From Anagrus nilaparvatae (lineage: Eukaryota; Arthropoda; Insecta; Hymenoptera; Mymaridae), in NCBI GenBank assembly GCA_022575985.1, contig JAKSXM010000007.1, positions 57,566,501 to 57,630,500 of the forward strand: 64,000 bases of DNA, read 5' to 3'. Shown here piece after piece: positions 2,317 through 64,000 of the stretch. Each line of letters starts with the position of its first letter. Positions within the stretch are counted from its first letter, which is position 1. The translations under genes were made by a program, and so were the position numbers. The notes under the pieces are model-generated. The model made no database searches and was not told the DNA's origin. It saw only the letters and a list, made by a program, of their open reading frames with translations.

Positions 2317-2575
2317 CTAGCATAGGTGAGAGGGGGGGTTCCGCCCCCCTGATCTATTCCCGGTGTTGTTGTTATTGATTTTTTATTATTATCATGTTGT
2401 TATTGTCCAAAATATATATCAATGTCAAAAAAAATTAACGCCTTGAAATAAGCTCAAATTTTGGTTCCTCATAGAGGAACCTTTGTGATAGATGAAATTT
2501 TGATTTTTGATTTTTTGGCATATAAGCACGTTTTGGGACCTCAGGAAGCTAAAAAACCGGTTTTTAAAAAAAGTC

Positions 2576-2629
<54 letters not shown>

Positions 2630-4430
2630 ACCGGTGAAATTTCACAACCATTATGAAATTAAGACCTAATTTTTTTTTCAAAAATTTTTTTATCAAAAAA
2701 TCTCAAACTACTTTTTTTTTTTTTTAATTTGGATGTAATACCTCATTTATTTCCACGAAAGTACCTATATTTGAAAGTACGATTTTTACTCGATATCTCG
2801 AATCTGATAACTAATTTTTTGAAAATTTTTTTCTCAAAATTTTTTTCACAAAAAAATACAAAAAACACTAATTTTTTTTTTCTTTTTGGACGTAGTACCT
2901 AATTTATTTCTTTGAGATTACTAGTTTTAGAACTATGGTTTATAGCATTTTTTTGGACCTGATACCTAATTTTTTCAAAATTTTTTTCTCAAAATTTTTG
3001 TTGCCAAAAAATACAAAAAATGCCAAAATTTTTTTTATTTTAGGACGTAATACTTAGTTTTTTTCTATGAAAGTACTAATATTTGAAAATTTTGCAATCG
3101 GTGGTATTTAACAACCATTATGGAATTAAGATCTAATTTTTTTTTCAAAAATTTTTTTATCAAAAAATCTCAAACTACTTTTTTTTTTTTTTAATTTGGA
3201 TGTAATACCTCATTTATTTCCACGAAAGTACCTATATTTGAAAGTACGATTTTTACTCGATATCTCGAATCTGATAACTAATTTTTTGAAAATTTTTTTC
3301 CCATAATTTTTTTCACCAAAAAATACAAAAAAAACTTAATTTTTTTTTATTTTTGGATGTAGTACCTAATTGATTTCTATGAGAGTGCTAATTTTAGAAA
3401 TATCGTTTATAGTAATTTTTTGGACCTGAAAATTAATTTTTTCAAAATTTTTTTCTCAAAATTAAAAAAACAAAAAAATTAAAAAATCTGTAATATTTTT
3501 TTTTTTTTTTAGTGTAATACTTCCTTTAATTCCATGAAAGTACTAATATTTGAAAATGTTGCAATCGGTGGTATTTAACCACCATTATGGAATTAAGATC
3601 TAATTTTTTTTCAAAAATTTTTTCATCAAAAAATCTCAAACTACTTTTTTTTTTTTTAATTTGGATGTAATACCTCATTTATTTCCATGAAAGTACTTAT
3701 ATTTGAAAGTACGATTTTTACTCGATATCTCAAATCTGATAATTAATTTTTTGAAAATTTTTTTCCCAAAATTTTTTTCACAAAAAAATACAAAGAATAC
3801 CAAATTTTTTTTTGTTCGGACGTAGTACCTAATTAATTTCTATGAGAGTACTAGTTTTAGAAAGCTTATTTATAGTAATTTTTTGGATCTGATACCGAAT
3901 TTTTTCAAAATTTTTTTCTCAATATTAATAAAACAAAAAAATTAAAAAATCTGTAATATTGTTTTTTTTTTAAGTGTAATACCTAGTTTATTGAAATTTT
4001 TTTCTAAAAATTTGTTAAATAAAAAACATTAAATCACAGAAACATTTTTTTTCTTTTAAAATACGGTATTTAACTTTTTTTTATGAAATACTGATATCTC
4101 AAATTATCATTTTTATTAGATAAAATAGACCATTATAAATATTTTGCTATTGTTAATGAGGAACCATAGTGCCAATCACTTGGCAGCGTTTTTTTCTTAA
4201 TGTATACCTTTTACCAGTTCAAATGTTACCAATAAGATAAAATTTGTAGTAAATTCAAAGGAATGGTGTAATTTTGAAAATGGGACAGATCAGGCTATTT
4301 TTGGACCTTTGAACAGACATATTTCGGGCCCATGAGGTGCTAGAGGACTTAAACTTTGGCTGAGGGACTTTTTTTATCACCCCAAACTATACCCTAAAAT
4401 TTGAGTTGAATATATATAATATATAGTAAA
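2317..4430 (-). mobile_element. Helitron-like CTAG-ended unit, copy 2, interrupted
   Basis: Same CTAG plus GC-hairpin start and same body as the unit at 1942. It is split by the Helentron-like element at 2463-4188; the body resumes at 4189 with 'TTCTTAATGT' and the 'TTTACCAGTTCAAATG' stretch also seen at 2108 onward. No protein coding seen. Confidence 0.5.
2463..4188 (+). mobile_element. Helentron/HINE-like non-autonomous element, copy A
   Basis: Starts with the perfect palindrome GGTTCCTCATAGAGGAACC. After about 115 bp comes a (TG)n run (2580-2619), then tandem repeats of about 467 bp rich in poly-T. It ends with ATGAGGAACC (inverted copy of the first ten bases) followed by a terminal hairpin TGCCAA-TCAC-TTGGCA and GCG. 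Flanks are T on both sides and there is no target duplication. A terminal 5' repeat with a sub-terminal 3' partner, a 3' hairpin and T|T insertion match the Helentron (Helitron2) pattern. Short ORFs in the 5' end are fortuitous. No Rep/helicase gene is present. Confidence 0.7.
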
Positions 4431-6398: not shown

Positions 6399-6935
6399 TT
6401 AAAATTGCTCGGAAATTTCCATCGTTTGCAGTTTCATCCATTTCAATTCCCCCTTATCTGAACGTCCTCTAAGAGGTATGTTATTTCGACCATGAAGAAT
6501 AACTGCATCCAAAATGGTTTTAAGGTATGAACGATTATCTTCAATTACATCAGCACCATGCTCATGTAATCGATTTATAACAGAAGTCTCGGGTGTTTTC
6601 AAATTATTCAAAAAATCTTTTGCAGTTTTGATCGCATCCTTATTATAATTACTCTGATCATGTTTTGTAAGACTACCTGTTTCTCCAAAAATCTTAGTTA
6701 ATGGAGCTCTTACATGCTTATTTAATGAAACATTTTTCTGATAACTGCCAAGGTGATTATTAATAAATAGGGGGCAATATTTGCGAAAGTATCCTTCTTT
6801 TTCTTGAGAGTAAACAAGCCATTCATATGCGTCCAGATGCTTATTGCTAGCAAATCGTTTCTCAATTTTGCCATTTTTTTGATGACTTGAATATGGAAAC
6901 ACGAAATTTTTGTCTGGTTTAAGATTAAATTTTGT
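6399..6935 (-). pseudogene. hAT-type transposase fragment (ZMYM1-like N-terminal part)
   Basis: A reading frame of about 178 codons resembles the TTF-type/ZMYM1-like region of domesticated or live hAT transposases. It has an FPYSS...KRF start, W-L-x-YS followed by an aromatic/Cys pattern (EGYFRKYCPLF), a middle segment, and then N-R-x-x-L-K-x-I-x-x-x-I-x-x-x-GR-x-N-I-P-LRG-x-x-D, a signature of that family's start of catalytic region. The frame is blocked by a stop just upstream of about 6936 and ends at TGA/TAA near 6399 far short of the catalytic domain and dimerisation domain. It is therefore a broken relic. It lies about 1.7 kb downstream of AADAT copy 1 in the same orientation but is unrelated to it. 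Confidence 0.65.
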
Positions 6936-8608
6936 TTTGCATAATCATCTATACATTTATTGTCTATATAACTTCCAATGTCATATTTTAATGTAGGAGT
7001 TTTATTTTCTTCCTCATTTTAATCATTTTTTAATGGTTCTAATAAATGATTGTTTTCCTTAGTATTTTAATTAATTATTGTTGGAGAAGTTTTAATAATT
7101 TCATGATCAATTTCTTGTATAGGTAGGTTAATTTTGTTGATTCGATTCAGGAAAATAGTCTTGGATAGTTTTTGGTTTCTCATGGATGGGAGAAGTGATA
7201 TCTAAATTTTCCTGCAATTTTCCCATATAAAATTTGAAATTCGACATATTGCGATAATGTTTGATAATATATGGTTTTAAAACCATTCATAAAGATAGAA
7301 ATTCAATAGTTTCAAATCGTAATTTTTCATTTGGAATTTACAATTGAAAACGATACAGAAAAAACAAAAAAATATTACAGCGATTGTTTTAAATAGTAAA
7401 TAAAGATAATAATTATATAATATTGGCTATATTATTCAATCGTTACCAATGGAAACAAAAAATTTTTTTAAATTACGACTAAGATTCAATGGTTTTCAAT
7501 CGTGAAGATAAAAATATACAAAATAATTTATTATAATTGATCCCAAATAGGTATTTTTTAAATCAAAAAATATGTTTTTTAATCTTGGGATGAAAGATCT
7601 AAATGTTCAATTTAAATATTTTGTCTAAAATAATTTTTAGACTTAATAAAAACATATATAATAAAAATTATTATTTATTCTTAACATTGTCTCATGATTA
7701 GATATTTTACATTTAAAATTGGTTCAACGTAAAAAAACTTATGGCTAGTTTTATTTTTTTGGTGTAAAAGTAACTTTTTAAGGAGATCTCTTTTTAAGCA
7801 CCGTAAACCGCAATTGTATAATAATAATTTATAGTTATTGTAAATAAATTAAAGGCCCATTTTTAGTCCAAAATGACCAATTTTTAAATTATTGCTAAAA
7901 TTGTAATTATTCATGAAAATTGGTTTTATAGGTCTCAAAAATTTTCTATAAGCTTAAATTTTTTTAAAAATTTTTACTCGTCTCTTTTCATTGAATAGTT
8001 TCCGAGATATCGATTTTCTAAAATAATGATAAAAATGACTTTTTTTAAAAATTCTTAAATTGGGGCTCTGACTTTAAATTATACTATTTGGAAAACAAAT
8101 CAATCAAAAGAGACGAGTAAAGAATCATTGGAAGCGCGAGGCTTGTAAAAAATTTTTGATACCTATAGAAGTTATTTTTATGAAAAAATAAAATTTTGGT
8201 AGCAATTTAAAAGTCATTAATTTAAAATAAAAAAAAAAACTTAAAATACGCATTATAGGTCCCATGAAAGTTTGGCAGATGAGCTGATCGGATTTTCTAG
8301 TAGGAAGGAATCGACTGAAAAAAATATATTTTAAAAATCTACACAAGCCGATTTTAGCGACATTTTTTTTAACTTTCGGGCACGTTCAGGCTTGGTGTGT
8401 TACAGGCCTACAGCGCATAGAGTCAAGGAACTGTAATCGTATTTTGTATTATTTATTCTAAGCCTTTCTTACATAAAGTTATGAATATTTAATTGGAAGT
8501 CGTTCATTATTTTGATACTGGTAAAAGATAAAAAAATATTTATACTCAAATTGATCGAAAAAAAAAAATTACAATTAAAATTTATTTCAGTTTTATATTA
8601 ATTACTCC
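6936..8608. other. Gene-free stretch with an inverted repeat
   Basis: AT-rich, no gene. About 7915-8345 is a loose fold-back (for example CGTCTCTTTT at 7979 pairing with AAAAGAGACG at 8106, and matching outer segments). A similar arrangement occurs at about 34370-34720, so this is probably a small dispersed fold-back family. Confidence 0.45.
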
Positions 8609-17215: not shown

Positions 17216-18237
17216 AAGTTGGAATTTATGAATTTGTTGTGTTTACGTTTTTGTTCAAGTACACATGTAAAAGCAGTATATATGTTACGCCCGAAACGAG
17301 GTAACGGCCGGTTCCACGGAATCGGACAGTCATCAGCCGGTTTAATAAAATATGAATAAAATTTGATATGTCAAACCAATTTTTTATCTTATAATTAATC
17401 AGTATCATTCAAAAATGTATTTTAAATTTAAAAAAAAATTTTTTTTTTAAATTTTTTCTTTGAAAATTTTCTTATTTTTAATGTATTAATTTATTTAACT
17501 TGATGCCCCGTTCTGCGGGACCAATTTTTGAATTTTTCAGCCGGTTTTCAATTTCAATTTTTGACAAATAAACGTGTAAAAATGAAAAATATTTGGGCTA
17601 TATAATCATTAATGGAGTTTTATTTGCTTGGAAAAATATATTTTATGAGATAAAAAAAATAGACAAATTATTTAACATAGAAAAGTATAATTACTTCATT
17701 TTAACTAAAATAAAAAAATTGGGACTCTAGGGGTTCTAACATTGTAGCGCATTAAAATAATTATTTTCGGGCATCTTAATGATATGTAACAATCAGTTTG
17801 GACTAAAAATCGTCAACATTTACCATTATAACTCGTACATAGATTAAAAACAGCCTAAGATGCAAGAAAAAGTAATATAACAAAATTTGATGAAAAAAAG
17901 GAAAAAAATAAAAACAGGTTTTCTAGCATATAAATTTCAAAATATTATTAAAAACCGATGCTATATCCTTGTTTGTATTAGTTTTGAACTTGTTTTAACT
18001 TGTCAAAAAAGAAAATCCCGAAAAATACAGTGAAAAACCCCTAAAATAAAAATTTTCGAAAATTGGGTAGCTCAGTTACGAAAAAAGGCAGTTTTTGACA
18101 TAAAAGTGGAAAAATTTTTTTGGCACCTATCATCGATTTCTTTTTCACGATTTTTTTTTGGTTTTCTGAAGGTTCCAACTACCTGAAAACACGGGTCCTA
18201 TCAATCCGCCTTCAAGTTAAGTAGTAAAAAAAAAAAA
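17216..18237. other. Gene-free stretch with dispersed repeat fragments
   Basis: A GC-richer patch at 17284-17345 ('CGAAACGAGGTAACGGCC' theme) resembles the inverse of the patch near 5480-5530. The 18040-18200 segment is a single arm of the fold-back family at 12190-13240. No gene seen. Confidence 0.45.
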
Positions 18238-18476
18238 ACGCTGCCAATTAATTGGCACTATGGTTCTTCATTAGCAATAACAAAATGTTGTCAATGTTCT
18301 ATTTTACCTAATAAAAAATTAAAATATTAGAATAATTGTGCTAAATATTCTAAATTTAATAAAGAAAATGGATAAACTTTCCCCTGATACCCAAAAAAAT
18401 TTCAAAACTCATAAATCCAGGTATTAATACTTTCAGAGAAATAAAATCGGCACTACATCAATAAAAAGATAATTTT
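18238..18476 (-). mobile_element. Helentron-like element, 3'-end fragment
   Basis: Begins with CGCTGCCAA-TTAA-TTGGCA, then ACTATGGTTCTTCATT: the 3' hairpin and sub-terminal repeat of the family at 2463-4188 in reverse orientation, with substitutions. Similarity fades after about 100 bp. Confidence 0.6.
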
Positions 18477-18589
18477 GGTTCCTCATAGAGGAACCTTTGT
18501 TATAGATGAAATTTTGATTTTTGATTTTTTGGCATATAAGCACGTTTTGGGACCCCTGGAAGCTAAAAAACCGGTTTTTAAAAAAAGTC

Positions 18590-18639
<50 letters not shown>

Positions 18640-20200
18640 ACCGGTAAAATTTCACAACCATTATGGAATTAAGACCTAATTTTTTTTTCAAAAATTTTTT
18701 TATCAAAAAATCTCAAACTACTTTTTTTTTTTTTTAATTTGGATGTAATACCTCATTTATTTCCACGAAAGTACCTATATTTGAAAGTACGATTTTTACT
18801 CGATATCTCGAATCTGATAACCAATTTTTTGAAAATTTTTTTCTCAAAATTTTTTTCACAAAAAAATACAAAAAACACTAATTTTTTTTTTCTTTTTGGA
18901 CGTATTACCTAATTTATTTCTTTGAGAGTACTAGTTTTAGAACTATGGTTTATAGCATTTTTTTGGACCTGATACCTAATTTTTTCCAAATTTTTTTCTC
19001 AAAATTTTTGTTGCCAAAAAATAAAAAAAATGCCAAAATTTTTTTTATTTTAGGACGTAATACTTAGTTTTTTTCTATGAAAGTACTAATATTTGAAAAT
19101 TTTGCAATCGGTGGTATTTAACAACCATTATGGAATTAAGATCTAATTTTTTTTTCAAAAATTTTTTCATCAAAAAATCTCAAACTACTTTTTTTTTTTT
19201 TTAATTTGGATGTAATACCTCATTTATTTCCATGAAAGTACTTATATTTGAAAGTACGATTTTTACTCGATATCTCGAATCTGATAACTAATTTTTTAAA
19301 AATTTTTTTCCCAAAATTTTTTTCACCAAAAAATACAAAAAAAACTTAATTTTTTTTTATTTTTGGATTTAGTACCTAATTGATTTCTATGAGAGTGCTA
19401 GTTTTAGAAATATCGTTTATAGTAATTTTTTGGACCTGAAACTTAATTTTTTCAAAATTTTTTTCTCAAAATTAAAAAAACAAAAAAATTAAAAAATCTG
19501 TAATATTTTTTTTTTTTTAGTGTAATACTTCCTTTAATTCCATGAAAGTACTAATATTTGAAAATGTTGCAATCGGTGGTATTTAACCACCATTATGGAA
19601 TTAAGATCTAATTTTTTTTTCAAAACTTTTTTCATCAAAAAATCTCAAACTACTTTTTTTTTTTTTTTAATTTGGATGTAATACCTCATTTATTTCCATG
19701 AAAGTACTTATATTTGAAAGTACGATTTTTACTCGATATCTCAAATCTGATAATTAATTTTTTGAAAATTTTTTTCCCAAAATTTTTTTCACAAAAAAAT
19801 ACAAAGAATACCAAAATTTTTTTTTGTTCGGACGTAGTACCTAATTAATTTCTATGAGAGTACTAGTTTTAGAAAGCTTATTCATAGTAATTTTTTGGAT
19901 CTGATACCGAATTTTTTCAAAATTTTTTTCTCAATATTAATAAAACAAAAAAATTAAAAAATCTGTAATATTGTTTTTTTTTTAAGTGTAATACCTAGTT
20001 TATTGAAATTTTTTTCTAAAAATTTGTTAAATAAAAAACATTAAATCACAGCAACATTTTTTTTCTTTTAAAATACGGTATTTAACTTTTTTTTATGAAA
20101 TACTGATATCTCAAATTATAATTTTTATTAGATAAAATAGACCATTATAAATATTTTGCTATTGTTAATGAGGAACCATAGTGCCAATCACTTGGCAGCG
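18477..20200 (+). mobile_element. Helentron/HINE-like element, copy B (full length)
   Basis: Full-length and very similar to copy A: 5' palindrome, TG microsatellite at 18596-18630, the ~467-bp internal repeats, sub-terminal ATGAGGAACC, terminal TGCCAA/TTGGCA hairpin ending GCG at 20200. The flanks are T on both sides. Confidence 0.7.
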
Positions 20201-21374
20201 TTTTTTTTAAAGTTTTTAATGTAAAAAATTTTGAAAAAAAAAATTTCGAAAAATTACGTATCAGATGGAGAGATCCTTTAAAAACGATAATTCTAGATAT
20301 TCGTACTTTCATGGGAAAAAATTAAGTATTACGTCCTAAAATAAAAAAAATTTTGGCGTTTTTTGTATTTTTTGGCGACAAAAATTTTTACAAAAAAATT
20401 AAAAAAAAATTAAGTATCAGGTCCAAAAAAATGCTATAAACGATATTTCTAAAACTAGTACTTCCATGGAAATAAATTAGGTACTACGTCCAAAAAGAAA
20501 AAAAAAATTGGTATTTTTTGTATTTTTTTGTGAAAAAAATTTTCAGAAAATTAAGTATCCGATTTGAGATATCATGTGGAAACCATACTTTCAAATACAA
20601 GTACTTTCATGGAAATAAATGAGGTATTACATCCAAATTAAAAAAAAAAAAAAGGAGTTTGAGATTTTTTGATAAAAAAATGTTTGGAAAAAAAAATTAG
20701 GTCTTGATTCGATAATGGTTTTGAAATATCACTAGTTAAAATATTTTCAGATATTAGTACTTTCATAGAATTAAATGAGGTATTACACCAAAAAAAAAAA
20801 AAACATTGCAGTTTTTTTTATTTTTCTTTTTTTTTAATTTTGACAAAAAAAAATTTGAAAAAATTAAGTATCAGATCCAAAAAATTACAATAAACAAGGT
20901 TCTTAAAACTAGTACTTCCATGGAAATAAATTAGGTACTACGTCCAAATAGAAAAAAAAAATGGTATTTTTTGTATTTTTTTGTGAAAAAAATTTTAGAA
21001 AAAAAATTTTTAGAAAATTAAGTATCCGATTCGAGATATCGAGTAAAAACCATACTTTCAAATATAAGTACTTTCATAGAAATAAATGAGGTATTACATC
21101 CAAATTAAAAAAAAAAAAAGTACCTCGAGCTTTTTTGGTTAAAAAAATTTTGAAAAAAAAATTAGGTCTTAATGTCGTGTTGGCTGTGAAATATCACCGG
21201 TTACAGTGCGACATACATACATACATACATACATACATACACACACACAAACACACACACAGACTTTTTTTAAAAACCGGTTTTTTAGCTTCCTGAGGTC
21301 TCAAAACGTGCTTATATGCCAAAATATCGAAAATCAAAATTTCATCTATCACAAAGGTTCCTCTATGAGGAACC
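20201..21374 (-). mobile_element. Helentron-like element, copy C (3'-truncated, inverted)
   Basis: Opposite orientation to copy B and abutting its 3' end. It has the 5' palindrome at 21356-21374 and CA/CATA microsatellite at about 21210-21260 plus one to two internal repeats, but no 3' hairpin before copy B begins. Sequence is more diverged than copies A, B, D and F. Confidence 0.6.
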
Positions 21375-23812: not shown

Positions 23813-24582
23813 GTACCTGTAAAATATTTTTCGAGACTTTGAAGCATCAAGTCTCTTCTATATTTATAGAAGGTTCTAATTTTTGCAAAATGATCCATCA
23901 ATTTTTCGTATGACCAAGAATCGAAAAGTTTTTGAAAAATCACCTGGTACCAAATTTAAGTGATAATGTTTAATGATTATATTTATCCTTCACATAAAAT
24001 GACTGTTAGTTTTACCTGTGTCAATGTTGAAGCGTGGAGACTTGACGAAGAAACGTGCAACTTTAATTTTTGAATAACTGGAATAGGCGTGGTTATAACT
24101 CCAAGTCTCATTCCTCCACTCATGACTTTGCTAAACGAATCTGCCCTGATTACTCTACCATCAACGTCAATCGATAAAAATGATTTTGGTTGTTCATCTA
24201 AAAAATGAATAAAAAAATATGCGTCATCTTCAAGGATCAAGAAATCATATTTTTGTGCCAATTTATAAATTTCCAACTTTCTTTTATTCGAAAACACGGT
24301 TCCAGTTGGATTTGCTCCCACGGGATTTACGTAAAGAAGCTATATTTTATAAGAAAAACTTATTAAAAATTTTAAAAATCAAAAATTTCCATAGATTAAT
24401 TAACTTAATTAAATTACCCTAGGAAGTTGCTTCTTTTGTTTAATTCTATTTTCAAAAATATTCTCGATTTCATTTGTTAATAAACCATCTTTATCCATAT
24501 TTACAGGAATCAATTCAGGAACCATTGGATTTATCTAAAAATTTGTTAATTTGAGGGGCATCAACGATGAAAATAAAATACG

Positions 24583-24949
24583 CTGCCAACTAGCTGGCAC
24601 TAAGGTTCCTCATTTCCTCAAACAATGAGCTTAATACATCAATATGCCGCTGATATCACCGATTACAGCCATGCAATCATACATACATTACTCTCTTAAT
24701 TCCATAATAGTTGTGAAATATCACCGGTTACAATATTTTCAGATATTAGTACTTTCACGGAGTTAAATGAGGTATTACACCCAACAAAAAAAAAGATTGC
24801 AGTTTTTTTAATTTTTTTGTTTTTTTAATTTTGAGAAAAAAATTTTGAAAAAATTCGGTATCAGATCCAAAAAATTACTATAAACGAACTTTCTAAAACT
24901 AGTACTCTCATAGAAATAAATTAGGTACTATACGTCCAAAAAGAAAAAA
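24583..24949 (-). mobile_element. Helentron-like element fragment (old)
   Basis: Begins CGCTGCCAACTAGCTGGCAC then AGGTTCCTCATT: a diverged 3' end of the GGTTCCTC family, followed by mixed internal-repeat sequence up to the insertion of copy D at 24950. In the AADAT copy 2 intron between exons 3 and 4. Confidence 0.55.
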
Positions 24950-26513
24950 CGCTGCCAAGTGATTGGCACTATGGTTCCTCATTAACAATAGCAAAATATT
25001 TATAATGGTCTATTTTATCTAATAAAAATTATAATTTGAGATATTAGTATTTCATAAAAAAAAGTTAAATACCGTATTTTATAAGAAAAAAAATGTTGCT
25101 GTGATTTAATGTTTTTTATTTAACAAATTTTTAGAAAAAAATTTTCAATAAACTAGGTATTACACTTAAAAAAAAAACAATATTACAGATTTTTTAATTT
25201 TTTTGTTTTATTAATATTGAGAAAAAGAATTTTGAAAAAATTCGGTATCAGATCCAAAAAATTACTATGAATAAGCTTTCTAAAACTAGTACTCTCATAG
25301 AAATTAATTAGGTACTACGTCCGAACAAAAAAAAAATTTGGTATTCTTTGTATTTTTTTGTGAAAAAAAATTTGGGAAAAAAATTTTCAAAAAATTAATT
25401 ATCAGATTTGAGATATCGAGTAAAAACCATACTTTCAAATATAAGTACTTTTATTGAAATAAATGAGGTATTACACCTAAATTTAAAAAAAAAAAAAGTA
25501 TTTTGAAATCTCTTGATGAAAAAATTTTTGAAAAAAAAATTAGGTCTTAATTTCATAATGGTTGTTAAATACCACCGATTGCAAAATTTTCAAATATTAG
25601 TACTTTCATGGAATTAAAGGAAGTATTACACTAAAAAAAAAAAAAATATTACAGATTTTTTAATTTTTTTGATTTTTTAATTTTCAGAAAAAAATTTTGA
25701 AAAAATTAAGTTTCAGGTCCAAAAAATTACTATAAACGATATTTCTAAAACTAGTATTCTCATAGAAATCAATTAGGTACTACATCCAAAAATAAAAATA
25801 AATTAAGTTTTTTTTGTATTTTTTGGTGAAAAAAATTTTGAGAAAAAAATTTTCAAAAAATTAGTTATCAGATTCGAGATATCGAGTAAAAATCGTACTT
25901 TCAAATATAAGTACTTTCATGGAAATAAATGAGGTATTACATCCAAATTAAAAAAAAAAAAAAAATAGTTTGAGATTTTTTGATGAAAAAATTTTGGAAA
26001 AAAAAATTAGGTCTTAATTCCATAATGGTTGTGAAATATCACCGGTTACAATATTTTCAGATATTCGTACTTTCATAGAAAAAAATTAAGTATTACGTCT
26101 TAAAATAAAAAAAATTTTGGCATTTTTTGTATTTTTTGGCAACAAAAATTTTGAGAAAAAAATTTTGAAAAAATTAAGTATCAGGTCCAAAAAAATGCTA
26201 TAAACGATATTTCTAAAACTAGTACTTCCACAGAAATAAATTAAGTACTGCGTCCGTAAAGAAAAAAAAAATTGGTATTTTTTGTATTTTTTGGTGAAAA
26301 AAATTTTGAGAAAAAAATTTTCAAAAAATTAGTTATCAGATTCGAGATATCGAGTAAAAATCGTACTTTCAAATATAAGTACTTTCGTGGAAATAAATGA
26401 GGTATTACATCCAAATTAAAAAAAAAAAAAAGTAGTTTGAGATTTTTTGATGAAAAAATTTTTGAAAAAAAAATTAGGTCTTAATTCCATAATGGTTGTG
26501 AAATTTCACCGGT

Positions 26514-26557
<44 letters not shown>

Positions 26558-26670
26558 GACTTTTTTTTAAAACCGGTTTTTTAGCTTCCTGAGGTCCCAA
26601 AACGTGCTTATATGCCAAAAAATCAAAAATCAAAATTTCATCTATCACAAAGGTTCCTCTATGAGGAACC
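24950..26670 (-). mobile_element. Helentron/HINE-like element, copy D (full length)
   Basis: 3' hairpin at 24950-24970, sub-terminal repeat, ~467-bp internal repeats, CA microsatellite at about 26520-26553, 5' palindrome at 26652-26670. Both flanks on the element strand are T. It lies within a diverged relative of the same repeat and in the AADAT copy 2 intron. Confidence 0.7.
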
Positions 26671-26817
26671 AAAAAAATGTGGTGTTGATTGTATTTTTTT
26701 GTGACGAAGATTTTAGAGAAAAAAATTTTTTTTAAATTATTTATCAGATTCGAGATATCAAGTAAAAATCATACTTTCATGGAAATAAATGAAGTATTAC
26801 ATCCAAAATTAAAAAAA

Positions 26818-28384
26818 CGCTGCCAAGTGATTGGCACTATGGTTCCTCATTAAAAATAGCAAAATATTTATAATGGTCTATTTTATCTAATAAAAATTAT
26901 AATTTGAGATATCAATATCTCATAAAAAAAAGTTAAATACCGTATTTTAAAAGAAAAAAAATGTTGCTGTGATTTAATGTTTTTCATTTAACAAATTTTT
27001 AGAAAAAAATTTTCAATAAACTAGGTATTACACTTAAAAAAAAAACAATATATATTACAGATTTTTTAATTTTTTTGTTTTATTAATATTGAGAAAAAAA
27101 TTTTGAAAAAATTCGGTATCAGATCCAAAAAATTACTATGAATAAGCTTTTTAAAACTAGTACTCTCATAGAAATTAATTAGGTACTACGTCCGAACAAA
27201 AAAAAAATGGTATTCTTTGTATTTTTTTGTGAAAAAAATTTTGGGAAAAAAATTTTTAAAAAATTAATTATCAGATTCGAGATATCGAGTAAAAACCATA
27301 CTTTCAAATATAAGTACTTTTATGAAAATAAATGAGGTATTAAACCTAAATTAAAAAAAAAAAAAAGTATTTTGAAATCTCTTGATGAAAAAATTTTTGA
27401 AAAAAAAAATTAGATCTTAATTCCATAATGGTTGTTAAATACCACCGATTGCAAAATTTTTAAATATTAGTACTTTCATGGAATTAAAGGAAGTATTACA
27501 CTAAAAAAAAAAAAAAAATATTACAGATTTTTTAATTTTTTTGTTTTTTTAATTTTGAGAAAAAAATTTTGAAATAATTAAGTTTCAGGTCCAAAAAATT
27601 ACTATAAACGATATTTCTAAAACTAGTACTCTCATAGAAATCAATTAGGTACTACATCCAAAAATAAAAAAAAATAAAGTTTTTTTTGTATTTTTTGGTG
27701 AAAAAAATTTTGAGAAAAAAATTTTCAAAAAATTAGTTATCAGATTCGAGATATCGAGTAAAAATCGTACTTTCAAATATAAGTACTTTCATGGAAATAA
27801 ATGAGGTACTACATCCAAATTAAAAAAAAAAAAAAGTAGTTTGAGATTTTTTGATGAAAAAATTTTTGAAAAAAAAATTAGGTCTTAATTCCATAATGGT
27901 TGTGAAATATCACGGGTTACAATATTTTCAGATATTCGTACTTTCATAGAAAAAATTTAAGTATTACGTCCTAAAATAAAAAAAATTTTGGCATTCTTTG
28001 TAGTTTTTGGCAACAAAAATTTTGAGAAAAAAATTTTGAAAAAATTAGGTATCAGGTCCAAAAAAATGCTGTAAACCATATTTCTAAAACTAGTACTTCC
28101 ACAGAAATAAATTAAGTACTGCGTCCATAAAGAAAAAAAAAATTGGTATTTTTTGTATTTTTTGGTGAAAAAAATTTTCAGAAAAAAATTTTCAAAAAAT
28201 TAATTATCAGATTCGAGATATCGAGTAAAAATCGTACTTTCAAATATAAGTACTTTCGTGGAAATAAATGAGGTATTACATCCAAATTAAAAAAAAAAAA
28301 AAGTAGTTTGAGATTTTTTGATGAAAAAATTTTTGAAAAAAAAATTAGGTCTTAATTCCTTAATGGTTGTGAAATTTCACCGGT

Positions 28385-28416
<32 letters not shown>

Positions 28417-28535
28417 CATACAGACTTTTTTTAAAAACCGGTTTTTTAGCTTCCTGAGGTCCCAAAACGTGCTTATATGCCAAAAAATCAAAAATCAAAA
28501 TTTCATCTATCACAAAGGTTCCTCTATGAGGAACC
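26818..28535 (-). mobile_element. Helentron/HINE-like element, copy F (full length)
   Basis: Same architecture as copy D, including CGCTGCC hairpin at the 3' end and GGTTCCTC palindrome at 28517-28535. It separates fragments of a more diverged family member (26671-26817 and 28540-28740), indicating nested insertion. Very similar to D, suggesting recent amplification or local duplication. Confidence 0.7.
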
Positions 28536-41605: not shown

Positions 41606-43376
41606 TACTCCAGGCAAATCAATGGGGGGGGTCGATTTTTTCCCCACTAATTAGGTTTGTTCCCCTTTAAGATTTTTGGGTCGCTGAACACGAATTTCGG
41701 GGTCCCGGAGACCGTCTAAGGGTAAATTTGCAAATTTACCCTTTTAAGGGGTATTTTAACAATATTTTTAACAGGAGTTATAAATAACAATTTAAGCAGA
41801 TTATAATAGGTTTTTTGGCTCACTAATCACGAATTTGAGGGTCCCAAGTGTGTAAAGTTGATTAAACACCCTTAAATTTGCAAATCAACCCTTATTTTTG
41901 CAAACTTTATATCCAAGCCTTTTCAATCGGCAGGATCATGATTTTATAGGTTTTTGGGGTCGTTAATTACGAATTTGTGGGTTTTAACTTAATAAAGTTG
42001 GTCAAACACCCTTAAATTTGCAAATCAACCCTTATTTTTGCAAACTTTATATCCAAGCCTTTTCAATCGGCAGGATCATGATTTTATAGGTTTTTGGGGT
42101 CGTTAATTACGAATTTGTGGGTTTTAACTTAATAAAGTTGGTTAAACACCCTTAAATTTGCAAATCAACCCTTATTTTTGCAAAATTCATACCCAGGCCC
42201 TTTCAAACGGCAGGGTCATGATTTATTAGGTTTTTGGGGTTGCTAATTACGAATTTAGAGGTTTAAACTTCATAAAATTGATTAAACACCCTTAAATTTG
42301 CAAATCAACCCTTATTTTGCAAAATTCATATCCAAGCCCTTTCAAACGGCTGGATCATGATTTAATAGGTTTTTGGGGTTTCTAATTATGAATTTAGAGG
42401 TTTAAACTTTAAACTTAAGAGAATTTATTTTTAATGCTTTGCTTCTAAGATCATAAATTAATTATATAAACTGAACGCAATTGTTACTAAAATCAATAAA
42501 GAAAATTTTTAAATTTAACAAAGGAATTTTTTTAATTAAACCTTTCACTAATTTTTTTTAGTTTGATAACCCAAATTCATAGTTTTCAACATAAAAAGAC
42601 TGTTAAAGAAAGTTTGTTTTTCATTTTAAAAGGCTTGTATACTAAATTTTGCAAATTAAGGGTCAATTAGCAAATTTAAGGATGTTTAATAAATTTTATG
42701 AAGTTTAAACCTCTAAATTCATAATTAGCAACTCCAAAAACCTATTAAATCATGACCCAGCCGTTTAAAAGGGCTTGGATATGAATTTTGCAAAAATAAG
42801 GGTTGATTTGCAAATTCAAGGGTGTTTAATCAATTTTATGAAGTCAAAAACCCTAAATTCATAATTACCAACCTCAAAAACCTAATAAATCATGATCCTG
42901 CCGATTGAAAAGGCTTGGGTATAAAGTTTGCAAAAATAAGGGTTGATTTGCAAATTTAAGGGTGTTTAATCAATTTTATTAAGTTAAAACCCACAAATTC
43001 GTAATTAACGACCCCAAAAACCTATAAAATCATGATCCTGCCGATTGAAAAGGCTTGGATATAAAATTTGCAAAAATAAGGGTTGATTTGCAAATTTAAG
43101 GGTGTTTAATCAACTTTACACACTTGGGACCCTCAAATTCGTGATTAATGAGCCAAAAAACCTATTATAATCTGCTTAAATTGTTATTTATAACTCCTGT
43201 TTAAAATATTGTTAAAATACCCCTTAAAAGGGTGAATTTGCAAATTTAAGGGTGTTCCACCCTTAGACGGTCTCCGGGACCCCGAAATTCGTAATCAGCG
43301 ACCCAAAAAACATAAAGGGGAACAAACCTCATTAGTGGGGAAAAAATCACCCTAAATCCCGTGATTTGCCTGGAGT
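41606..43376. repeat. 1.77-kb fold-back of 140-bp tandem units
   Basis: Ends TACTCCAGGCAAATCA and TGATTTGCCTGGAGTA are exact inverse complements. Inside, the left arm has 140-bp units: the motif CTTAAATTTGCAAATCAACC recurs with starts at 41871, 42011, 42151 and 42291. The right arm (about 42660-43270) has the same units inverted, and the outermost segments (GTCCCGGAGACCGTCTAAGG at 41702 versus its complement at 43262) also pair. No coding. Confidence 0.85.
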
Positions 43377-59325: not shown

Positions 59326-60660
59326 ATTATTTTCTGATTTTAATTTTTACAGTTTTTTACTTTAGTATATTTCTTAAAAAGTAATTTGGTAATTTTTTGT
59401 TTATAATATTTTGCAAGTTTAATAGATTTTATAATATGTACTAAAGGATGGGTAATATTCGCTCTGAAGCTCAATTTTGGAATTAAATTTGAAAAAATGA
59501 TAAATATCTTTTTAACTACAATGTTAAATGAATAAAAAAATAGCTTACTTGCAAAAAATTAGTAAATTTTCGATAAAAATTATTATATACTATAATTTAG
59601 TAATTTTAGTATTTTAAACTTAAATCGAAAATTCTCAAATTATTGTCGTGAATTCGCGAAATGAATTGTAAATTTACCAAAAATAGTTGTCAATTTATAA
59701 CTTTTTTCGCAAATTTACAAAAGTTAAAAAAATGAACAATTTTTATCAAAAGTATACAAATTTCGTCTAAAATCTATAATTAATTTTTCGTATAAATAGA
59801 CTATTTTTTTGGTGTAAATTTACAGGAATTACATGCACAGTAACAGTCTCGTATACCTATTTAAATCTTTTAAAAGAAATGAATTAAATTGAAAGTAAAA
59901 AAATCAAATGCAAAAAATTTTTAACGATAAAATTAATAAAAATTAGGCCAGTAAAGTAAGCCGCCAGAAGTAGATAGTTTACTAAAAAAACATTTTTTGC
60001 AAAATCTTTAATGCTAAGAGTAAACTTATTATTAATTGGGTTTTTTTTTGATAAAATAAAAGTACACATTCGGTTAAAAAGAAAAAAAAATTTGTTTGGC
60101 GTGGAGCCTATAACAAAGTGATTGTTTCTTTAATTTTCTTTATAACTTTTCTCGCCTATAATAATTTGAATGTGCAAAATAACCGCATTCAATAGAAATA
60201 TTTTACTTTCAAAAATCGAAAAAATTTTACTTTTTGTATAAGCGGTTATTAAAATTGAGCTGTGGAACCAATTTTTCCATTTTTCTGAAAATTTTGGGCC
60301 CCCGAAAGACTTCACAAACTATAGGTAAAAATGTAACTCACAAAATAAATAATTAAAAAATTCATACAAAAATTTAATGCATTCTTATAAGATTTTTAAT
60401 TCTATTTAATTTCCTATAACATCAAACAATTTTTCATTTTTTGCTTACTAAACATAAAAGCTTATTTAATTTAAGGTATAAGTATTTACATTATTATTTA
60501 AAAAATTTTTTTCAGATAATTAAATTGCGCCATTTATATGTCATATATACAACATTCAAGGACGAATAGTACTTATATATTTGTAAAAGTCTAAATTTTT
60601 TAGCAGTAAAATAGTTCGTATTATAATCTACCTATACTATAAATATGTAATCGCCGCTGT
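59326..60660. other. Gene-free AT-rich interval
   Basis: Contains further mirrored AAATTTAC-type words at about 59540-59840 that resemble the interior of the neighbouring MITE, otherwise nothing recognisable. Confidence 0.4.
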
Positions 60661-60671
60661 AGGCAGGTTAC

Positions 60672-60732
60672 CACGTGGTTATCACGTGATCGCCACGTGA
60701 TTATCATGTGATCACCAGGGCTATATCACGTG
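60672..60732. repeat. 11-bp tandem array carrying CACGTG boxes
   Basis: CACGTG occurs at 60672, 60683, 60694 and 60727, with CATGTG at 60705 and a degenerate CAGGGC at 60716. All lie on one exact 11-bp register with TGATC/GTTAT spacers. This is six units of an 11-bp repeat, directly preceding the 25-bp minisatellite. Confidence 0.85.
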
Positions 60733-60741
60733 ATCGCGAAA

Positions 60742-61567
60742 GATCTTTAGGGACTTCTGCACCATAGGTCTTTAGGTACTTCTGCACCATAGGTCTTTAG
60801 GTATTTCTGCACCCAAGGTCTGTAAGTACTTCTGCACCATAGGACTTTAGGCACTTCTGCACCAAAGGTGTTTAGGTACTTCTGCACCATAGGTCTTTAG
60901 GTACCTCTACACCATAGGTCTTTAGGGACTTCTGCACCATAGGTCTTTATGTATTTCTGCACCAAAGGTATTTAGGTACTTCTGCACCATAGGTCTTCAG
61001 GTACTTCTGCACCATAGCTCTTTAGGTATTTCTGCACCAAAGGTCTGTAAGTACTTCTGCACCATAGGACTTTAGGTACTTCTGCACCATAGGTCTTTAG
61101 GTATTTCTACACCAAAGGTCTGTAAGTACTTCTGCACCATAGGTTTTTAGGTACTTCTGCACCAAAGGTCTTTAGGTACTTCTGCACCATAGGTCTTTAG
61201 GTACTTCTGCACCATAGGTCTTTAGGTATTTCTGCACCCAAGGTCTGTAAGTACTTCTGCACCATAGGACTTTAGGTACTTCTGCACCAAAGGTGTTCAG
61301 GTATTTCTGCACCAAAGGTCTGTAAGTACTTCTGCACAATAGGACTTTAGGTACTTCTGCACCAAAGGTGTTCAGGTACTTCTGCACCATAGGTCTTTAG
61401 GTACTTCTACACCATAGGTCTTTAGGGACTTCTGCACCATAGGTTTTTAGGTACTTCTGCACCAAAGGTCTTTAGGTACTTCTGCACCATAGGTCTTTAG
61501 GGACTTCTGCACCATAGGTTTTTAGGTACTTCTGCACCAAAGGTCTTTAGGTACTTCTGCACCAAAG
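60742..61567. repeat. 25-bp minisatellite, 33 units without indels
   Basis: Unit consensus TTAGGTACTTCTGCACCATAGGTCT. CTTCTGC (or TTTCTGC) recurs from 60754 to 61554 on an exact 25-bp register, 33 occurrences with no length change. Variants (CCATAGGTCTTTA, CCAAAGGTCTGTA, CCAAAGGTGTTTA, CCATAGGACTTTA) recur in blocks, indicating higher-order duplication. The open frame inside follows from the repeat and is not a gene. Confidence 0.95.
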
Positions 61568-61660
61568 ATTCCTAAATCGAAAATATTCTTAGTCCATAAA
61601 TTTAACAATTTTATTTTTTAATTGTTTTTAATGAGATGTGCGGAACAGTGAAGGCGTACT

Positions 61661-61683
61661 CCTCACGCGCGGAGCGCGTGAGG
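61661..61683. other. Perfect GC hairpin
   Basis: CCTCACGCGC-GGA-GCGCGTGAGG: 10-bp perfect stem with a three-base loop in AT-rich surroundings. It resembles other GC hairpins near CTAG ends in this window, but here is followed by ATAGT, not CTAGT. Confidence 0.6.
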
Positions 61684-64000
61684 ATAGTCTTTATATATAA
61701 AATAGTAAATACCTACTACTTACTAGCAGCACCGACATTACATTTAAAATCTGCGACATTATTTTTTGGAAATATTTTAAGTCGTCATTTTTTTCAACGT
61801 CTTTCTATTTTAAAATATTTAATATTTTCATTAATTATGAATGATTAAAAATAATCGATTGATGCAATATTAAATAATTATTAAAATTTTAAACTAAAAA
61901 TTCGTTGCAATGAATCTGGATATGGAATTTTTATTTTTTTCAACTAACAAAAAATTAATCTATCAGGGCAATTTGCACTTTTAATTTTTTCTTTTTTAAT
62001 TCGACTGAAAAACGTATTAATAACATGATAAAATGTTTTTTGTGTAATTATCTTTATCATCTTTGTATAGTAGTACACGTATTACATTTTGAATAATATA
62101 TAGATTTTAAATTTCTCTAAAATATCACAGTTCTTTAATTTTTTATCGCTTTTTTATTTTTTTTTGTACGGCGCGTAACGTGTACTTAATTTTTTTGCAA
62201 AAAAACTTTTTTCAGAAAAAAACATGCTTTTCTATTTTTAATTTTCAATTATTTACACAGTTATTAAATTTTCGTATTTTTACAATAATTTAAAAGTTGC
62301 TTTTATTTTTGTTCGCTAAGCAAAATTAAGTTTCATTTATTGCCGAAAAAAGACCGTAAAATTTGAAATCAATAAGAAAAGTTTCAGGAAAATCGCTGGG
62401 GCAAAAATTAGCAAAATTTAATATACTTAGAGCTCTGGATAAAAGATTTGTCAAAAAACCGGGTAAAAATGTAAACTATAAAATTTACACCAATTATAGA
62501 GATAGATATATACTACATTAAAGTTGCCAGCGACGGCACTGGAAACTCCGGCGAAAACTGCAAGTACCTATCTTTTACGAGACCGAAAATTTGCTTTGCA
62601 TAATTGATATATTATACCTATATCAAGATAAATATTTAATCTTATTTTTTGGTAATATCGCCTACTTTTGTTTTTATAAAGCAGCTTTTTTTAAGTAAAA
62701 TCCTAAACTATAGTATCTATAAGCAAAGGAAAAATTAATAAAATTATATATAAGTATTTAATATTAATTATCAGTCTTTTTTTTCTGTATTTTAATAGCA
62801 TTTAATCAAAAAAAAAATTACAAGCAATGCAATTTTTTCTCGAAAAAGTAAAAAAAATCTAATTAAATTAAATGAAATAAAAATCAAATTTACATAACTT
62901 TTTTATGAAATTGATATACTTGGAATTAATATTTAAATCGTTTAATTAATTAAATGAAAATTGCAACAAAAAAAAGTTTATAAATTATAGACATATGCAA
63001 AAAAAAAAAATTATCATTAGAGGGTTTCTGTAAAATAAGTAATAAAAAGTAAATAAAAACAAATATTTTTAAGATATAGGAATCAATTTAATTATTATTA
63101 AATTTTTTGTTTATTTATACATGTATAGTTCGCTCCTTTTTTTTCACTATAATATAATAATATTTTTTTTTTAAATTAATATTTAATAAAACAATTTTTT
63201 TATTTTTATTCTTAAAACTTAAAGAAAAAAAAAAATTTTTTTTTAATTACACATCTAAATATTATATATAAAATTGTTTTTTCTTTACATTATACATAAT
63301 AAAAAATACATATACATATTTTTTTATCTAAAATTTTTTTTAATATTATAGTCACATACTTATTTTATTTTTAAAAAAAAATTTTTATAAATATAAGTAA
63401 CAGATTGCATCTGCAAAAAAAAAAAACTTAATTTTAAGATCAACTGGATTTTTTTTTTATTTATTTAAAAAATGGCTATAAAAATTTATGTAAGCCTAAT
63501 TAAAATATTTATTTGTTGAGCTTCATTTATGGCTCTTGATTAATTAAAATAAAAATCATTTCCTTTAAAAAATAGTAGTAGTTGTAGTTGTACATTTAGA
63601 GTGTATAAAAAAAAAATTTAATTTAATACAAAACAATTAATCAGAATTTTTTTTCTTTAATTTATACACAAACTTAAAGTTTGACTTAATTAATTTTAAA
63701 AAATTTACATATACACTTTATTTTTTCATTTTTAAATAGATATATATACTACAAATTATTATAATAACTAAACAGTCGCTCGCTCAGCGATATAAAAAAG
63801 TTTATTTTTTCTTATTTAAAAAATCACTTTTTATTTATTATTATAAAAACAAACAAAAAAATATCACTTATTTATAAATAACTAATTAATTAATAATAAT
63901 AGAACCATTCAGAATTTTCTTTTCGCATTAAAAAAAAAATTGACAGTTTATATTATTCGCTGTGATAAAAATATAAATTCCAAGTAGTAATTATATTACA
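61684..64000. other. Gene-free, extremely AT-rich interval
   Basis: Apart from a small GC-richer patch at about 62523-62580 no gene, RNA or structured repeat was recognised; 63000-64000 is almost entirely A/T homopolymer-rich. Confidence 0.4.

Follow-up and report, generated by a model that had tools for sequence, protein, structure and literature searches.

A high-copy, probably Helentron-like non-autonomous family in Anagrus nilaparvatae with a strongly restricted 5' flank

Elements of the HINE/DINE-1 type have been described as carrying a palindromic sub-terminal repeat, a microsatellite and central repeats, and as inserting into a T-rich target (excerpts of PMC4067079 and PMC7492417). In HINE-Mo from Metaseiulus occidentalis, the 3' repeat lies 38-60 bp and the 3' palindrome 8-35 bp from the end (PMC4067079, in excerpt). 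The targets given for the related groups are a site between TNAT and T for the FoHeli elements of Fusarium, between TTTT and T or C for Helitron2, and the TT dinucleotide for Helentrons (PMC5148889, in excerpt). Here we describe a family found in a stretch of 64,000 nucleotides of Anagrus nilaparvatae DNA (hereafter, the window), which is very probably a high-copy non-autonomous Helentron-like (HINE-type) rolling-circle family carrying a short satellite-like array. It is thus a known kind of element, and we found no name for the family in the literature searched.

The structure is best followed in copy A (2463-4192, + strand), which runs from GG to GCG and four T, host and element T being indistinguishable at this terminus. 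The copy is preceded by the tetranucleotide TTTT (2459-2462, +) and opens with a 19-nt palindrome, GGTTCCTC-ATA-GAGGAACC (2463-2481, +), an exact match with an 8-bp stem and a DNA fold of -7.3 kcal/mol, composed of the sub-terminal repeat and then its own complement. A TG microsatellite (2576-2628, +) is followed by a central tandem array of 2.9 units of 467 bp (2632-3990, +), each made of about three monomers of ~155 bp; TRF reported a period of 467 with 2.9 copies and, more weakly, a period of 155 with 8.5 copies and 66% matches. Near the 3' end, ATGAGGAACC (4156-4165, +) is an inverted copy of the first 10 nt, and beyond it lie the hairpin TGCCAA-TCAC-TTGGCA (4170-4185, +; DNA fold -5.3 kcal/mol) and the terminus GCG-TTTT (4186-4192, +), which in the other subfamily is GGG-TATT. 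The layout originally predicted, that is, a 5' palindrome, an inverted sub-terminal ATGAGGAACC, a 3' hairpin, a TG run and repeats of ~467 bp, was confirmed in copies A and B and in the two minus-strand copies with 5' ends at 28535 and 26670. In all four, the TG run comprises 12-20 units, and three unit markers stand ~467 bp apart.

This arrangement agrees with the HINE/DINE-1 description: sub-terminal inverted repeats are present, of which only the 5' one is palindromic, a hairpin lies 3-7 nt from the 3' end, and at least two T stand on each side of the insertion in 24 of the 25 complete copies whose two ends we could pair, the remaining one having TTTC on its 5' side. HINE-Mo shares the sub-terminal inverted repeats, the 5' and 3' palindromes, the optional microsatellite or tandem repeats, the T-rich target, the lack of a target-site change and the unequal numbers of T at the two ends; however, its sub-terminal repeats are palindromic, whereas here this holds for the 5' copy only, and our 3' repeat (23-27 nt from the end) and hairpin lie nearer to the end (PMC4067079, in excerpt). 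Cg_HINE from Crassostrea gigas likewise has a repeat with its immediate complement, a microsatellite in the left module, a short satellite-like array, a 3' sub-terminal repeat with a palindrome, a TT target and an autonomous partner that was not found; its microsatellite has mostly 4-nt units, whereas ours is TG and our 467-bp unit is built of three ~155-bp monomers, and the two are likened by layout (PMC7492417, in excerpt). Drosophila DINE-1 is similar in its sub-terminal repeat, nearby inverted repeat, microsatellite, 3' stem-loop and preference for TT, but has a conserved core, and its inverted repeat is ~3-22 bp away (PMC4067079, in excerpt). The FoHeli/Helitron2 elements of Fusarium resemble the family in their asymmetric inverted repeat and extended target and, for FoHeli1 and 2, in hairpins at both ends, but FoHeli1-5 are fungal, have other end sequences and include known autonomous members (PMC5148889, in excerpt). 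A canonical Helitron (Helitron1), with 5' TC, 3' CTRR and insertion between A and T, was rejected, the ends here being GG... and ...GCG-TTTT/TATT or ...GGG-TATT. The family is another example of a Helentron-like element with a satellite-like array.

A genome-wide search for the 5' end bore out the prediction of a family and revealed it as abundant: the exact palindrome occurs at 1,879 places (922+957) in the 488.7-Mb genome, versus 0 for the reversed control. Among IMG/VR viral contigs, a set from which records near the window's own genome may be left out, the exact palindrome had 0 matches. In the window, it lies at 2463-2481 and 18477-18495 on the + strand and at 21356-21374, 26652-26670 and 28517-28535 on the - strand, with a chance expectation of 0.00. 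In the window and the fetched loci together (272,849 bases), the 5' end was recognized 49 times and the 3' end 30 times, which gave the 25 paired complete copies, with 1.0-3.6 kb between ends; the longest end-to-end copy (L057) spans 3.6 kb. The strongest self-match shift was 463-470 in 19 of these copies, and 154, 158, 295, 308, 456 and 460 in the rest; copy length probably varies with unit number.

Several copies are nested. Copy B (18477-20204, +), 98.15% identical to copy A over 1,730 columns, sits inside copy C (18235-21374, -), a member of a different subfamily that is split by copy B and owes its length to this insertion; the unit markers of copy C number two, and its TG run is short and broken. 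The copies with 5' ends at 28535 (26814-28535, -) and at 26670 (24946-26670, -) both have flanks like the internal repeats, and the 3' end of a further copy (24581-24611, -) differs from the end of copy A by 5 mismatches. Indeed, the 5' flanks of these two minus-strand copies and of L004, L037, L041 and L046 found 39 to 238 matches in the window and the fetched DNA, many of them in stretches of internal repeat. Since 5' flanks match internal repeats and copy B lies within copy C, we conclude that the T-rich arrays act as targets. At another locus (L050, 2824-6328), two copies of different subfamilies follow one another head to tail, T6 alone separating the GCG end of one from the GG of the next. 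Three 5' ends at L040 (2600-8000) have near-identical upstream host DNA; a concatemer was therefore rejected for this locus in favor of a segmental tandem duplication.

The size of the family and the 98% identity of copies A and B provide a clean record of the junctions. The original prediction had copy A inserted at T|T (2462/4189) without a duplication, taking a neighboring host repeat as the empty site. This unfilled paralogous site reads AAA T8 CTTAATG (2081-2098, +), and T7 is found in a second paralog (L030). The filled site, by contrast, has T4 + T7 = T11; the predicted boundaries thus leave an excess of 3-4 T, which vanishes once the insertion is taken to include about four more nucleotides (GCG-TTTT, to 4192). 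Those boundaries are ~4 nt short and need correction, and because the T counts differ (11 versus 8 and 7), the empty site in the window is not by itself proof that duplication is lacking. We searched the joined flanks of the 25 copies against the window and the fetched DNA for unfilled sites. Comparable sites were obtained for 8 copies; 13 had no spanning match, and 4 more (L045, L050 twice and L058) matched only themselves, neighboring copies or poor stretches. The surplus over the unit GG...GCG/GGG was 4 nt at 6 of the 8 sites (copies A and B, the copies ending at 28535 and 26670, L043 and L055), 3 nt at L041 (at three distinct places, 97-98% identical) and 5 or 6 nt at L056. For the 26670 copy, the junction surplus is 4 in two of three paralog rows and ~3 in the third; the comparisons for L043 and the 28535 copy are only ~78% identical and carry lower weight. 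Most unfilled sites lie within T runs, where slippage can imitate a gain. The inserted length is mostly the GG...GCG/GGG unit plus 4 nt.

The two flanks of the paired copies behave differently. On the 3' side, the tetranucleotide is TTTT in 18 of 19 GCG copies and TATT in all 6 GGG copies (Fisher p = 4e-5 for subfamily versus tetranucleotide). On the 5' side, the same 25 copies have TTTT (17), TATT (4), AATT (3) or TTTC (1). The two tetranucleotides are the same in 12 copies and discordant in 13. The 3' tetranucleotide tracks the subfamily and, in 13 of 25 copies, is not matched by the 5' flank; it is therefore no duplication. A tetranucleotide duplication is absent, in agreement with the lack of target duplication described for HINE/DINE-1; one shared TT is not assignable to host or element, and a plain TT duplication is compatible with the junctions. 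An exact GG...GCG element with a TT duplication was dropped, given the surplus of mostly 4 nt and the dependence of the 3' tetranucleotide on subfamily.

The 5' flank is strongly restricted. At 47 distinct local 5' ends (one mismatch allowed, two duplicates dropped), it reads TTTT in 29, TATT in 13, AATT in 4 and TTTC in 1. The T run before GG has length 2 (17 ends), 4 (16), 5 (7), 6 (4), 7 (1), 12 (1) or 0 (the TTTC end), and never 3. At all ends but the TTTC one (46 of 47), T is on the same strand of the element. The genome counts rule out a small-sample effect as the cause of the missing class: exactly three T precede GG at 14 of the 1,879 palindromes (11 after A, 3 after C). Exactly two T are found at 520, with A as the preceding base in each of the 100 listed of these 520; TATT accounts for 325 of the 1,879 flanks, which leaves 195 two-T ends that depart from TATT at -4 or -3. 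By subtraction, runs of four or more T number at most 1,345 of 1,879, and the frequency of AATT rests on 4 of the 17 local two-T ends. Among background NNTT sites (291,849 bases of window and fetched DNA, both strands, family copies included), 23.4% have three T and 17.6% have two T after C or G. Binomial p-values for the flank bias are extreme, but they assume independent copies, and segmental duplications, for example at L040, break this assumption. Among ends with at least two T, two-T flanks occur in 2 of 15 ATTGT-type versus 15 of 31 TTTGT-type ends (Fisher p = 0.03). Since both flank classes occur within one 5' subfamily, the bases at -4 and -3 are most likely supplied by the host.

The prokaryotic HUH elements IS91 and IS608 have fixed tetranucleotides beside one end. 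We tentatively raise the possibility, on which we would not insist, that the host tetranucleotide (TTTT, TATT or AATT; hardly ever ATTT, CTTT or GTTT; no C or G at -3 in the flanks inspected) is read as a unit that matches the TTTT/TATT at the 3' end of the element, as a eukaryotic counterpart of the IS91/IS608 flank motifs rather than a plain TT. The excerpts of published Helentron descriptions at hand (PMC4067079, PMC7492417, PMC5148889, PMC5876387), from a literature search not aimed specifically at this point, contain no such tetranucleotide rule. With these counts, the loosely defined "TT-rich target" of Helentrons becomes a four-base rule that is open to test, and the resemblance of the 3' tetranucleotide to it suggests how an HUH-type Rep could recognize both the target and the element ends. 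In the scheme we envisage, a Rep/helicase supplied in trans would nick the 5' palindrome on the plus strand; the displaced strand would be copied by a rolling-circle route, with the 3' hairpin ending the copying, and the GCG-TTTT or GGG-TATT end, whose terminal tetranucleotide resembles the target, would join a TWTT-type host site. Such sites are numerous in the T-rich internal array, which would explain the nested copies.

Other origins have to be weighed against this reading. The first 10 nt recur in inverted orientation near the 3' end, and filled sites exceed the GG...GCG/GGG unit by 3-6 nt, as a 4-bp duplication would also produce; both could suggest a cut-and-paste (DDE) origin, the family being a MITE with inverted repeats of 10 bp that duplicates a short target, TT or TTTT. 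We regard this as very unlikely, since the inverted copy at the 3' side is not terminal but lies 23-27 nt inside the element, the tetranucleotides are discordant in 13 of 25 copies with the 3' one tracking subfamily, and symmetric ends should insert both ways, whereas T is on the same strand at 46 of 47 5' ends. Still more improbable, to the point of being negligible, is a retroposed SINE-like family read in reverse with the T runs as tails: T runs do follow the 3' end, but both flanks being T-rich is matched by unfilled sites that already have T runs, and the discordant tetranucleotides, the two fixed ends and the internal tandem array also speak against it.

A closer competitor, possible though in our judgment not the favored option, is that the source was a Helitron2-type element (Rep/helicase without endonuclease) and not a Helentron proper. 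Helitron2 has asymmetric inverted repeats, hairpins at both ends and insertion between TTTT and T or C (PMC5148889, in excerpt); on the other side, the microsatellite and central repeats are listed features of HINEs. The genome has at least 152 matches to Helitron_like_N (Pfam; 150 of 552 candidates scored). One Rep locus (L060, 2686-7101, -) contains an 810-aa frame with the Rep motif GSPH (EWQFRGSPHIH), DUF6570 and, in a separate frame, a piece of PIF1 helicase. The S of GSPH is given as the mark of Helentron-type Rep proteins (PMC4067079, in excerpt), and the L060 Rep is accordingly predicted to be of this type. In the three frames scanned at L060, we found no endonuclease domain, as expected for Helitron2, but this is a weak point because the locus is split over several frames and matches the helicase only in part. 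A second locus (L059, 500-6263) has a 1,724-aa Rep/PIF1 frame with the motif GLPH, which is Helitron-type; a 207-aa frame with no Pfam match precedes it.

The original prediction called for a search for an autonomous element sharing the family's ends, and this search, among listed Rep matches and at two Rep loci, yielded no partner. On contig C1, 13 Rep matches are listed below 23.66 Mb; when they are compared with the first 100 listed palindromes, the closest pair is 11.8 kb apart and thus no pair falls within 10 kb. Neither family end is present in the two Rep loci read (L059, 9 kb; L060, 10 kb). Because this search gave no partner, class membership rests on structure and not on transposase linkage. 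The Helentron-like or Helitron2-like reading proposed at the outset is upheld by the layout, the T-rich target, the discordant flanks and the constant element strand of the T; its boundaries and its empty-site argument have to be amended.

The window also contains frames that match VPS11, ETF-alpha and a ligand-gated glutamate receptor, and a frame at 6399-6944 (-) with a weak match to the A-macroglobulin TED domain (E 2.4e-05). A large inverted repeat at 41723-43248 has arms of 604 nt that are 94% complementary and built of ~140-bp direct repeats. Finally, a tandem array with a 25-bp period occupies 60589-61700, where 33 overlapping 300-nt copies are listed in 25-bp steps.
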